Shown piece after piece: positions 12,890-18,498 of a stretch of DNA of 35,953 nucleotides. The DNA lies in NCBI RefSeq assembly GCF_003953935.1, contig NZ_RXLQ01000031.1, forward strand, positions 1 to 35,953, written 5' to 3'. Position 1 is the first letter of the stretch. Each line of letters starts with the position of its first letter. This DNA comes from Massilia atriviolacea. GTDB lineage: Bacteria > Pseudomonadota > Gammaproteobacteria > Burkholderiales > Burkholderiaceae_D. A program made the translations under genes and the position numbers. Below the pieces are notes generated by a model, which was not told where the DNA came from, searched no databases, and was given only the letters and a program-made list of their open reading frames with translations.

Positions 12890-13522
12890 TTAGTTTGGTT
12901 TGGAGAGCGCGAGCTTGATGCCGAGCCAGATGAACAGGCCGCCGGTCGCGCGGTTAAGCCACAGTGAGAGAGTCGGGTTGACCTTGATGCGGGCGCTTGC
13001 CCGCGCCGTGAACAGCGCCAGCGCGATCGACCACAGCATGCCGTTGACATTGAAAATGCAGCCGAGGACGACGAAGGCCAGCGCCTTGCCGGATGCGTCA
13101 GGCGCGATGAACTGCGGTACGAAGGCCAGGAAGAAGATCGCCACCTTGGGATTGAGGACGTTTGTCAGGAATCCCTGGGCGAGGATTTTCGCATACGGCA
13201 GCGGGGCCACCGCGCTTGGTGACGCAGGGTCGCGCCGCCTGCTGCGCAGCAGGCCGATCGCCATGTAGATGATGTAGGCCGCGCCGGCGTACTTGACGAC
13301 CATGAAGGCGGTCGCCGAGGTGGCCAGGATGGCGGACAGGCCGAGTGCCGCGGCCAGCACGTGGATCATGGTGCCGGCGCCGATGCCCAGCGTGGCGGCC
13401 ACGCCGGCGCGCCATCCCTGGGTGGCGCTGCGCGTCATGATCAGCAGCGAGTCCGGGCCGGGCATGATGTTGAGCAGCAGGCCGGAGAGGATGAACAGGG
13501 GCAGGTCGTGGATGCCGAACAT
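12890..13522 (-). CDS. LysE/RhtB-family amino-acid exporter
   Basis: A 210-aa polytopic inner-membrane protein with about six hydrophobic segments. The family N-terminal signature is [26 protein letters not shown] (residues about 15-40; PGPD is typical), and [15 protein letters not shown] is the second family motif. LysE/RhtB proteins export amino acids or related metabolites. This one lies between trpD and trpC on the same strand, 10 nt before trpC, so it is probably transcribed with the operon. Export of tryptophan, anthranilate or a related aromatic is a reasonable guess from context but has no support in the sequence itself. Confidence 0.88.
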
Positions 13523-15220: not shown

Positions 15221-16717
15221 TCAGATCTCCCCATCCAGGCCGTCTTGCACTTGTTCGGCGGCGCGCAGGACTGCACGCGCCTTGTTTTCGGTTTCCTGCC
15301 ATTCCATTTCGGGGTCCGAATCGGCCACGATGCCGGCAGCGGCCTGCACGTACAGCATGCCGTCCTTGATTACCCCGGTGCGGATCGCAATCGCCACGTC
15401 CATCTCGCCGCCGAACGACAGGTAGCCGCAGGCGCCGCCGTAGATGCCGCGCTTGGTCGGTTCGAGTTCGTCGATCACTTCCATGGCGCGCACTTTCGGC
15501 GCGCCGGTCAGGGTGCCGGCCGGGAAGGTCGCGCGCAGCACGTCCAGGTTGGACATGCCTTCCTTCAGCGTGCCTTCGACGTTCGAGACGATGTGCTGCA
15601 CATGCGAGTATTTTTCCACCACCATGCGCTCGGTGACCTTGACGGTGCCGATGTCGGAGATGCGGCCCAGGTCGTTGCGCGCCAGGTCGATCAGCATAAC
15701 GTGTTCGGCGATTTCCTTGGGGTCGGCCAGCAGTTCCTTCGACAGTTCGGCATCGCGTTCCGGCGTCGCGCCGCGCGGGCGGGTGCCGGCGATCGGGCGC
15801 AGGGTGACTTTTTTGCTGCCGTCGGCCGCGGTCTCGTTGCGCACCAGGATCTCCGGCGAGGCGCCGACGATCTGCATGTCGCCGAAGTTATAGAAGTACA
15901 TGTACGGCGACGGGTTCAGCGAACGCAGGGCGCGGTACAGGGTCAGCGGATTGTCCACGTAGGGCTTGCGGATGCGCTGGCCGATCTGCACCTGCATCAG
16001 GTCCCCGGCCATCACGTATTCGTGGGCGCGCGCAACGGCCTTGAGGTAATCCTCCTTGCTGAACTCGCGCACCGCTTCGGTCCGCACCGAGCTCGATGTG
16101 ACGGGCGCGTCGACGCCACGGCGCAGCATCATGCGCAGGTCTTTCAGGCGCTGGCGCGCCCTGGAATAGGCTTCCGCCTGCGCGGTGTCGGCGTACACGA
16201 TCAGATACAGCTTGCCCGACAGGTTGTCGATCACCGCCAGTTCCTCGGTCACCATCAGCTGGATGTCGGGCAGGCCCAGGGTGTCCTTGGGCTGGGTGTC
16301 GGCCAGCTTGCGTTCGATGTGGCGCACGGTGTCGTAGCCGAAGTAGCCGGCCAGGCCGCCGCAGAAGCGCGGCAGGCCCGGACGCAGCGCCACTTTGAAG
16401 CGCGCCTGGTACTGCTCGATGAAGTCGAGCGGATTGCCGTTGTGGGTTTCGATCACCTCGCCGTGCTTGACGATCTCGGTGCGCGTGCCGAAGCTGCGCA
16501 GCACCGTCGACGCGGGAAGGCCGATGAAGGAATACCGTCCGAAACGCTCGCCGCCCACCACCGATTCGAGCAGGAAGGTGTTCTTGCTGACGTTATTCGT
16601 CTGCGCCAGCTTGAGGTAGAGGGTGAGCGGTGTTTCGAGATCGGCGAAGGCTTCCGAAATCAGGGGAATGCGGTTGAAGCCTTCGTTGGCCAGCGATTTG
16701 AATTCAAGTTCGGTCAT
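15221..16717 (-). CDS. trpE: anthranilate synthase component I
   Basis: A 498-aa chorismate-utilising enzyme, the committed step to tryptophan. N-terminal feedback-site elements [18 protein letters not shown] are visible. The catalytic domain shows [70 protein letters not shown] and [16 protein letters not shown] 16717 is preceded by a good GGAG site. Its first ~16 codons are also present, degenerate, as a remnant at 16951 in the duplicated leader region. Expression is very probably controlled by the two attenuators just upstream. Confidence 0.96.
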
Positions 16718-16762
16718 GCTTTTCTCCATGCCGCAGTGGCGCATCCGCCAGCGGTGGGGTTC

Positions 16763-16796
16763 AAAAAACCTGTCGGTGCAAGGGCGCAGCCGACAG
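16763..16796 (-). terminator. proximal trp attenuator terminator
   Basis: On the minus strand a CTGTCGG / CCGACAG stem (7 bp) encloses a 13-nt loop and is followed by GG and TTTTTT, then the trpE ribosome-binding site 36 nt on. It lies 14 nt after the stop codon of the proximal Trp-rich leader peptide, the standard layout of a transcription attenuator. A GATTGC just before the stem can pair with GCAATC inside the Trp-codon region, giving a candidate alternative structure. Confidence 0.85.
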
Positions 16797-16810
16797 CAAT
16801 CACTACGGGG

Positions 16811-16897
16811 TTACTTGGAGCAGGATTGCCAGCGACGCCAAAGCCAGGCCTCGAGCGGGCCGGTTTGGGGGGCATTGTGTTCTTTGACGAGCAACAT
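16811..16897 (-). CDS. trpL: proximal trp leader peptide (28 aa)
   Basis: A 28-codon ORF starting MLLVKEHN and carrying Trp at residues 18, 20 and 23 (EAWLWRRWQSCSK). The fourth Trp of the distal copy is Cys here. The stop lies 14 nt before the terminator hairpin. Ribosome stalling at Trp codons when charged tRNA-Trp is scarce would favour antitermination, as known for trp leaders. The ATG at 16897 has no clear ribosome-binding site, but the same frame is open from the ATG at 16951, which has the copied trpE site GGAG. The translated product may therefore be a 46-aa fusion of 18 trpE-derived codons and this leader. Confidence 0.8.
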   Translation of the reverse strand: MLLVKEHNAPQTGPLEAWLWRRWQSCSK

Positions 16898-16903
16898 CTG
16901 CGG

Positions 16904-16951
16904 TCGGTTGACGCATTCGTCGGCCCGCGATGTGAATTCGAGTCTGGTCAT
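16904..16951 (-). pseudogene. duplicated 5' end of trpE
   Basis: Starting at ATG 16951 the codons read MTRLEFTSRADECVNR, aligning with [16 protein letters not shown] of the real trpE. The copy keeps the trpE ribosome-binding site (GGAG at 16958-16961). After about 16 codons similarity ends and the frame continues, without a stop, into the proximal leader ORF. It is a remnant of the tandem duplication and may now serve as the translation start of the second leader peptide. Confidence 0.75.
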
Positions 16952-16997
16952 GCTTTTCTCCAGGCCGCCATGGCGCATCGCGCCGGCGGTGGGGTTC

Positions 16998-17031
16998 AAA
17001 AAACCTGTCGGCGCAAGGAGGCAGCCGACAG
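16998..17031 (-). terminator. distal trp attenuator terminator
   Basis: An 8-bp stem CTGTCGGC / GCCGACAG with an 11-nt loop is followed by GG and TTTTTT on the minus strand. It begins 14 nt after the stop of the distal leader peptide. It is slightly stronger than the proximal terminator because the eighth base pair is intact. RNA polymerase must pass both terminators to reach trpE. Confidence 0.85.
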
Positions 17032-17045
17032 CAATCACGACAGGG

Positions 17046-17132
17046 TTACTTAGCCCAGGATTGCCAGCGTCGCCAAAGCCAGGCCTCAATCGAGCCGGTT
17101 TGGGTGACATTGTGTTTTTTGATGAAAAACAT
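17046..17132 (-). CDS. trpL: distal trp leader peptide (28 aa)
   Basis: A 28-codon ORF beginning MFFIKKHN with Trp at residues 18, 20, 23 and 26 (EAWLWRRWQSWAK), an enrichment hard to explain except as a Trp sensor. It starts 13 nt after the gph stop codon and has no obvious ribosome-binding site, so translation may be coupled to gph or start inefficiently. The segment TGGCGACGCTGGCAATC over the Trp codons can pair with GATTGCTGTCGGC, which includes the 5' arm of the terminator. Such an alternative fold is expected of an attenuator. Confidence 0.85.
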   Translation of the reverse strand: MFFIKKHNVTQTGSIEAWLWRRWQSWAK

Positions 17133-17145
17133 ATGTGGTTGAAGG

Positions 17146-17859
17146 TTAGTGTGCGTTGCGGTTGTGGGAACGAATCAGGGTTGCCGCTTCTACAAGTGAG
17201 GTAACTATACCATCGGAATCTGTTTCGTGTATAGCCTGACCGTGGTTATAACCATACGGTACCGTCAAGACAAAGCATCCAGCTCGACGAGCGGCTTCTG
17301 CATCGTTGGAAGAGTCGCCGATCGCCACCACTTGCGACGGTGCAAGGTCGAAGTCGGCGCACACCTGCAGCAGGGGCATGGGGTCGGGTTTTTTGCGCGG
17401 CAGCGAGTCGCCGCCGTAGACCACCTCGAAATAATGTGCAAGGCCTTTTTGGGCCAGCAGCGGGGTGGCGAAGGCGATCGGTTTGTTGGTCACGCAGGCC
17501 AGGCGCAGGCCGTCTTTTTTCATGGCGTCCAGGCCGTCGATGACGCCGTCGTAGAGCGCGCTATGCTTGCCGTTGATGGCCAGGTAGTGACGCTGGTAGA
17601 AGGCCATGGCGTCGGCGAAGCGCTGGTCGACGCCGGCGGCATCGTGTTCCAGCGCGAGCACGGCGCGGATCAGGTTGTCGGAACCTTTGCCGATCATCAG
17701 ACCGATCTGCTGCTGGGTGATCGGCGCGTCGCCGAATTCGCCGCGCATGGCGTTGATGGCGACGTGGAAGTCGGGCAGGGTGTCGAGCATGGTGCCGTCG
17801 AGATCGATGATGACGGCGCGGATCGGGGCGGGCTTGGACTGGGTAGCGTTAGTGAACAT
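17146..17859 (-). CDS. gph: phosphoglycolate phosphatase (HAD superfamily)
   Basis: A 237-aa HAD phosphatase. Motif I is IIDLDGTMLDTLPD with two aspartates, motif II is CVTNKP, the lysine follows in GDSLPRKKPDP, and motif IV is AIGDSSNDAEAARRAG. It removes 2-phosphoglycolate formed during DNA repair or Rubisco side reactions. ATG 17859 is chosen because MFTNATQSKPAPIRAVIIDLDGT fits the family; the upstream extension does not. It is usually the gene between rpe and trpE in Betaproteobacteria. Here the trpE neighbour is kept but rpe lies 2.7 kb away behind an inserted islet. It may supply the transcript that enters the trp attenuators. Confidence 0.92.
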   Translation of the reverse strand: MFTNATQSKPAPIRAVIIDLDGTMLDTLPDFHVAINAMRGEFGDAPITQQQIGLMIGKGSDNLIRAVLALEHDAAGVDQRFADAMAFYQRHYLAINGKHSALYDGVIDGLDAMKKDGLRLACVTNKPIAFATPLLAQKGLAHYFEVVYGGDSLPRKKPDPMPLLQVCADFDLAPSQVVAIGDSSNDAEAARRAGCFVLTVPYGYNHGQAIHETDSDGIVTSLVEAATLIRSHNRNAH

Positions 17860-18075
17860 GAAATCAGGTCGGTGAATGGCGCTTGCTGAGCCGCTGATGT
17901 GTCGCGCGGCCGCTGCGTCTGTTGGGCGGATGGGCCCGGCGCTTTTTCGGGCGCTTGATCGGGTCATATGTCGATGCAGGCACGAGTATGATCCGACAGC
18001 GGCGATTCATCAATGCAGGCGCGTATCCGGACCGGTCTGCACTGGCGAGCGCCATGCGGCATGCAAGGGAACCAA

Positions 18076-18498
18076 TCAAATGTAACGTTCAATGGATCTT
18101 CCTTTCCTGGACCGCCAACGACTTTTTTCGATGTCGATGCGACCGTCAACGAAAGGCACCAGGACCGCGTCTCCCGTGAAACCTTTTCTCATGTCGAGCC
18201 AAAAATCACCAGTCAGTTGCTCGTCCACCTCGTCACGACGCACATCTTTAGTGAAAGGATATTCAAGCTGTTGCAGGTGGATTGTGCCATCGCGTCGAAG
18301 AAGATAGGTCGAGACGTATCCTCTCCACAGCGCCGTGCACATCACCATTTTCGTTGGATCGCCACGCACCGAAAATGTATATCCGGACCATGTCGTCGGA
18401 TCGTCAATATCGCCAACCATTACTCCGTACAGCTGGAACGCTGGCAGTTCAAGCGTTCCGTCTTCAACTTCCAGCACCTCTGGCATCTGCATTGTCAT
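18076..18498 (-). CDS. hypothetical protein, 140 aa
   Basis: I do not recognise this protein. It begins MTMQMPEVLEVEDGTLELPA and is acidic at the start and basic at the end (DIEKSRWRSRKGRSIERYI). It is rich in aromatic residues and has no signal peptide or membrane segment. Base composition is less GC-biased than the flanking housekeeping genes, which suits an acquired islet. The small, soluble, beta-rich look resembles many immunity or accessory proteins, but nothing specific supports that. Confidence 0.5.
   Translation of the reverse strand: MTMQMPEVLEVEDGTLELPAFQLYGVMVGDIDDPTTWSGYTFSVRGDPTKMVMCTALWRGYVSTYLLRRDGTIHLQQLEYPFTKDVRRDEVDEQLTGDFWLDMRKGFTGDAVLVPFVDGRIDIEKSRWRSRKGRSIERYI

Follow-up and report, generated by a model that had tools for sequence, protein, structure and literature searches.

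In an attenuator of the E. coli trpL type, a short Trp-rich leader ORF, alternative 1:2, 2:3, and 3:4 pairings, and a U-tract terminator precede trpE. To our knowledge, leader-peptide attenuation occurs almost only as single units.

Two leader ORFs on one operon have been described for Salmonella mgtCBR, which its authors, in the available part of their text, call a singular example, and the two attenuators there answer different signals, ATP and proline (PMC3641672). Tandem riboswitches for the same ligand, when each is a complete unit of sensor and expression platform, are expected to respond in a digital, pseudo-cooperative manner according to the accessible portion of one paper (PMC12452182), and the modes of action of tandem T-boxes are stated to be unknown in the excerpt available of another (PMC7583486). 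From synthetic biology comes the proposal, found in the open passages of the report on an engineered pT181 attenuator, that two in series could improve dynamic range (PMC3753616). According to theory, how sensitive attenuation is depends on how many control codons there are and what fraction they make up, and the same source credits the E. coli trp attenuator with more basal read-through and less sensitivity than that of his (PMC1183508).

Our analysis concerns a 35,953-nucleotide stretch of Massilia atriviolacea DNA (the window), in which the region ahead of trpE contains two leader units. With moderate confidence, we read these units as a serial pair of complete trp attenuators, both ribosome-mediated, whose effects multiply. 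The sequence, the reading frame, conservation, folding energies, and the age of the duplication were established directly; the functional part of the reading, namely promoter use, translation, termination at both sites, and multiplication, is inferred. Judged by its sequence, the paired switch ahead of trpE looks functional.

The gph-trpE interval and its two leaders

All coordinates refer to the window, and every feature given with coordinates lies on its minus strand. Between gph and trpE are two head-to-tail direct repeats whose starts, on re-measurement, lie 235 bp apart, which bears out the original prediction of two 235-bp direct repeats upstream of trpE. The upstream (distal) copy occupies 16905..17139 as part of the 235-bp tandem duplication, and the downstream (proximal) copy occupies 16671..16904 and runs into the true trpE. 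The two are 78-87% alike. Each repeat unit contains a leader and a terminator, both of which had been recognized, and in addition a trpE Shine-Dalgarno sequence, a start codon, and approximately 16 trpE codons, which had been overlooked. Located 5′ of the attenuators, gph (17146..17967; start codon uncertain) encodes phosphoglycolate phosphatase according to NCBIfam NF009695 and TIGR01449, both above cut-off. The trpE gene (15221..16717), encoding anthranilate synthase component I, matches TIGR00564 above cut-off, and alignment with congeners places its likely start at the ATG at 16717, preceded by a Shine-Dalgarno sequence at 16727-16724. The duplication junction falls at 16897-16915, between trpE-like CAACC and leader 2. 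Because leader 1 is also preceded by a similar CAACC, the sequence suggests that the duplication originated through microhomology at this motif.

Farther along, after trpD, lies a gene for a LysE/RhtB-type amino acid exporter (12890-13522), for which Trp or an intermediate may be a substrate. Among the best 80 of the 586 loci in which TrpE was found, counting only the flank retrieved around each trpE locus, a homologue of this exporter is encoded downstream of trpE at 16 named loci with 68-79% identity, and at one further named locus with 33% identity.

A scan of 16600-18300 for promoters found one promoter-like element, TATACA-18-TATAGT with a TG preceding the -10 hexamer, at 17204..17233 inside the 3′ end of gph. 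One hit compares with 0.6 expected from shuffled sequences, so the scan by itself does not exceed chance. Neither hexamer varies across 19 of 19 aligned rows, whereas the surrounding coding sequence does; these rows stand for at most 17 independent genomes, as two pairs that were counted as rows (L002 with L088 and L003 with L094) look like one genome twice. The element may serve as trp promoter in this group. Since it is the sole promoter-like site upstream and the same scan found none between the two copies, both attenuators are probably carried on one transcript. As for the repressor, no TrpR exceeded the profile cut-off in the genome. One sub-threshold match was judged not to be TrpR (23 bits versus 27, 43 of 88 positions, a 247-aa frame).

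Leader ORF 1 (17046..17132) has 28 codons, including four Trp codons, and its peptide, MFFIKKHNVTQTGSIEAWLWRRWQSWAK, is identical in several congeners. Neither leader 1 nor the aligned relatives' leaders have an evident Shine-Dalgarno sequence in front. The core of leader 2 (16811..16897) has three Trp codons and encodes MLLVKEHNAPQTGPLEAWLWRRWQSCSK, and the leader of each unit contains the Trp-rich tail WLWRRW and a stop codon. The sequence agrees here with the original prediction of an upstream leader of 28 codons with four Trp codons and WLWRRW, and of three Trp codons downstream. The second leader had also been given 28 codons, which holds for its core (16897-16811), but the frame is open from 16951 and spans 46 codons. 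Since the repeat unit carries the trpE start, leader 2 can be read as a chimeric ORF (16811..16951; MTRLEFTSRADECVNRPQMLLVKEHNAPQTGPLEAWLWRRWQSCSK) in which a decayed trpE-like N-terminus is fused in frame to the core with its three Trp codons, leaving an internal ATG at 16897. The duplicated trpE Shine-Dalgarno sequence, GGAG (16958..16961), lies 10 to 7 bases 5′ of the chimera's ATG. From the start at 16951, 35 codons precede the first Trp codon, compared with 17 in a 28-codon leader. An in-frame fusion of the trpE start to the leader would arise by chance in 1 of 3 cases, a point that weighs against reading the units as a series.

Both copies had been said to keep their Trp codons, stop, and terminator. 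The stop and terminator are indeed kept, but the fourth Trp codon of copy 2 has been lost (TGG to TGC). An Arg codon of leader 2 has also changed from CGA to CGT; among 93 leader rows, CGACGC occurs in 85, CGTCGC in 7 (copy 2 among them), and CGAGGC in 1. In leader 1 and the relatives, the Trp codons alone would not call for the degree of conservation seen in the body of the peptide and in the Arg codons CGACGC, for which either a nucleotide-level or a peptide-level role is conceivable.

Folding and the proposed serial switch

In both units, the leader stop is followed after 14 nt by a 7-bp stem, CTGTCGG/CCGACAG, a G, and six T residues, matching the hairpin and T tract that had been described from the sequence. 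Terminator 1 (segments 3:4) covers 16998..17031 and terminator 2 covers 16763..16796, with T tracts ending at 16998 and 16763, respectively. The corresponding candidate antiterminators (segments 2:3) are found at 17030..17065, where GGCAATC (17065-17059) can pair with GATTGCT (17036-17030), and at 16795..16830, where GGCAATC (16830-16824) can pair with GATTGCT (16801-16795). The 2:3 hairpin of copy 2 has gained a CTGC:GTAG extension. A consensus terminator scan with a loop limit of 3-8 listed neither terminator, both loops being longer than the limit, and the Rfam covariance models, that of the trp operon leader included, gave no match for the region at E up to 1.

For the folding calculations, a stalled ribosome was modeled by masking the RNA to a set distance beyond the start of the first Trp codon (12 bases after its first base for mask 12), and the two copies were compared with 25 single-copy rows comprising 22 distinct sequences. 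In nascent RNA without the terminator 3′ arm and masked at the first Trp codon, the 2:3 fold ties the best fold in both copies, with energies of -12.4 (copy 1) and -13.9 (copy 2) kcal/mol against -9.2 to -17.1 across the 25 single-copy rows. The terminators have energies of -15.3 (copy 1) and -14.5 (copy 2) kcal/mol against -10.4 to -17.8. Folding both leaders, as had been proposed, therefore places the energies of both within the single-copy range. For L087 and L089, in which one forced pair is non-standard, the forced fold beat the free fold, and that value was disregarded.

In the full RNA at mask 12, copy 2 shows the complete GGCAATC:GATTGCT pairing, as do 23 of the 25 single-copy rows, and copy 1 forms another hairpin while its terminator stays whole. 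The 2:3 pairing of copy 1 appears at mask 18 and is absent at masks 12 and 15, all of which leave its strands free. Because 2:3 displaces only the lowest terminator pairs in the full RNA of most rows and mostly leaves the upper stem, the competition of 2:3 with 3:4, modeled as an equilibrium switch, is partial, in the relatives as well. At equilibrium, and with a ribosome placed on the first Trp codon, the terminator base is formed to 0.75 for copy 1 and to 0.55 for copy 2 (0.05-0.90 across the rows); masking nearly the whole leader brings the terminator close to complete formation in both copies (0.99). Among the 93 leader rows, 39 distinct sequences have a clear terminator end, and 33 units chosen from these give a consensus fold whose only elements are the 3:4 terminator and a 1:2 hairpin spanning the Trp codons. 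The CGA to CGT change of copy 2, the single change in its functional core, sits in the loop of that 1:2 hairpin. No covariation was obtained for the 2:3 antiterminator in these 33 aligned sequences because its bases are near-invariant in the aligned subset.

We propose that a tandem duplication in this lineage gave rise to two attenuators, probably on one transcript starting inside the end of gph. When charged tRNA-Trp is scarce, a ribosome would stall at the first Trp codons and open the 1:2 hairpin, which would let GGCAAUC pair with GAUUGCU (2:3) before the 3′ arm of the terminator is made, and this pairing would compete with the terminator CUGUCGG:CCGACAG (3:4) at its base. When Trp is plentiful, the ribosome would reach the stop codon and the terminator would form. 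The second leader would be translated from the duplicated trpE Shine-Dalgarno sequence and start as the 46-codon chimera rather than as a free 28-codon leader. As had been suggested, the two leaders might also differ in the level of charged tRNA-Trp that they sense. Because RNA polymerase would have to pass both terminators, read-through into trpE, trpG, and trpD would be the product of two probabilities, and such a product would bring a tighter shut-off along with a wider and steeper response. Serial attenuation would perhaps replace a TrpR layer. In a kinetic toy model with assumed rates and a 10% leak, the basal value was 0.10 with one unit and 0.010 with two, and under strong starvation the values were 0.88 and 0.77, respectively; both units were given two control codons, so the model only illustrates multiplication. 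A second unit may be one way to cut leak. More tentatively, and with somewhat less than even confidence, we suggest that the response to tRNA-Trp has been squared through a duplicated sensor and that the trpE ribosome-binding site and first codons have been recruited as the beginning of the second leader, the genome having yielded no TrpR above cut-off.

Age, constraint, and alternative readings

Divergence was measured with six close congeners (L083-L087 and L089) as the reference over 227 aligned columns. There are 11 private changes in copy 1 and 20 in copy 2, and 10 changes relative to the congener majority are shared by both. Copy 1 has no change in its leader, antiterminator, terminator arms, or T tract (0/113 sites), compared with 11/101 elsewhere. 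For copy 2, a core was defined as codons 18-25, the stop, the antiterminator, the stem arms, and the T tract. With site classes picked after the sequence was seen and p-values left uncorrected, this core has 1/53 sites changed versus 18/115 elsewhere (nominal p 0.008), or 2/56 versus 17/112 (p 0.036) if W26, the lost fourth Trp, is counted as core, and the stretch from the duplicated Shine-Dalgarno sequence to T tract 2 has 1/66 versus 22/122 (nominal p 0.0007). Within the duplicated Shine-Dalgarno stretch and ATG, 0 of 13 sites have changed since the duplication.

Most of the change falls in parts made redundant, which have diverged by 16-19% (7/43 sites in the trpE-like codons of copy 1 and 9/48 in the leader body of copy 2). 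Since this is comparable with the pairwise fourfold-site divergence from the six congeners (0.16-0.19 for trpE and 0.25-0.33 for gph), the duplication is old and has been kept. Selection on both copies had been part of the original prediction; the substitution pattern (0/113 and 1/53) fits it, but the loss of the fourth Trp codon from copy 2 does not. Gene conversion need not be invoked to explain the conserved core, since the conserved blocks have copy-specific changes nearby on both sides.

The main rival to two attenuators in series is a decaying second copy. On this account, copy 2 is a slowly decaying relic of a neutral duplication, the upstream attenuator alone regulates, and the cost is at most a small termination tax. 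In favor of a relic, the tandem pair was seen in one species only, and beyond the ATG of leader 2, 13 of 81 codon sites have changed, with the loss of one Trp codon and of the conserved CGA. Set against this, the changes avoid its three Trp codons, stop, antiterminator, and terminator (1/53 versus 18/115), its folding energies fall within the range of the single-copy relatives, and the 235-bp repeat has survived a long divergence. We therefore judge a relic to be unlikely while giving it real weight.

A second alternative retains a function for the downstream unit as a steady, Trp-independent partial terminator, the 46-codon leader having altered the timing of the ribosome. With 35 instead of 17 codons ahead of the first Trp, the ribosome may no longer keep pace with the polymerase, and terminator 2 is intact. 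However, the Trp codons and the antiterminator pairing have been kept, and the 2:3 pairing has even been extended by CTGC:GTAG, so we regard this account as improbable. It is more doubtful still that the gain lies in a product rather than a switch, with the 46-aa peptide or the longer leader RNA acting in trans. The S. meliloti peptide peTrpL is reported to act in trans in the available part of the source (PMC7298713), and the chimera has both an uninterrupted reading frame and a Shine-Dalgarno sequence. Unlike the Trp core and terminator, though, the body of the peptide has drifted: within codons 2-17 of leader 2, 8 of 8 changed codons alter the residue, as do 6 of 6 changed trpE-like codons. 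A trans-acting product consequently seems very improbable to us.

Returning to two attenuators in series, the reality and the origin of the pair can be judged from its occurrence. When the 46-aa chimera was compared with approximately 5.8 billion proteins, one cluster (1/1 candidates) proved identical from end to end; its two members come from two contigs, of which the longest has 7,425,094 bp. The M. atriviolacea assembly is a draft of 7,355,158 bases in 80 contigs. Because that one contig exceeds the whole draft genome, at least one of the two contigs comes from another assembly, of this or another strain. An assembly error, which had been raised at the outset, or a mixture of two alleles might be entertained for a draft of 80 contigs and a second assembly that could be of the same strain, but it is scarcely credible when the identical junction-spanning 46-aa ORF lies on a 7.4-Mb contig longer than the entire draft, the copies are only 78-87% alike, and none of the 24 aligned relatives carries either diverged half of the repeat.

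The comparison across relatives that had been proposed finds a single copy elsewhere and the tandem pair only in this lineage. Of 16 other congeners, 15 have the leader region once and one lacks it (a genome that is 81% complete), whereas M. atriviolacea has two. For named relatives, a regular expression counted one leader core in 76 of the best 80 of the 586 loci with TrpE found, and none in 4. Across the family, a stricter leader pattern, which misses any degenerate second copy, matches 327 of 392 genomes, M. atriviolacea included. At least two same-strand matches occur in eleven of the 392 (table read by eye); in ten of the eleven they are on different contigs or far apart, and only in M. 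atriviolacea are they adjacent. A duplication common to the genus is not supported, the relatives being single-copy. Moreover, two of the ten bases that both copies share against the congener majority are present in none of the six nearest congeners. Given these bases and the single copies of the relatives, the duplication most likely arose on this lineage.

Comparison with known serial systems

In the open literature searched, which leaves subscription papers mostly outside, no leader-peptide attenuator in series with its own copy was found, in agreement with the original statement, though without proving it, that no serial trp attenuators had been described. Serial sensing of one signal is known for riboswitches and T-boxes from the accessible parts of two papers (PMC12452182, PMC7583486). 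A natural serial pair together with single-copy sister species offers a ready test of whether attenuators multiply. It also bears on how far basal leakage limits a single attenuator and on how regulatory RNA evolves by duplication.

Each M. atriviolacea unit resembles the E. coli trpL type in its leader, its predicted pairings, and its terminator before trpE; the differences are that there are two serial copies here and that the second leader is fused to a duplicated trpE start. In contrast to mgtCBR, the two units here are duplicates with a terminator apiece, and both would sense tRNA-Trp. Judged by sequence, this locus shares with tandem riboswitches and T-boxes the repetition of complete units in series, yet those bind their ligand or tRNA directly, whereas the sensor here would be the translating ribosome. 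Finally, the pT181 arrangement is likewise one of two transcription attenuators in series, but that pair is synthetic and controlled by antisense RNA, whereas the pair ahead of trpE is natural and would be controlled through two leader peptides.
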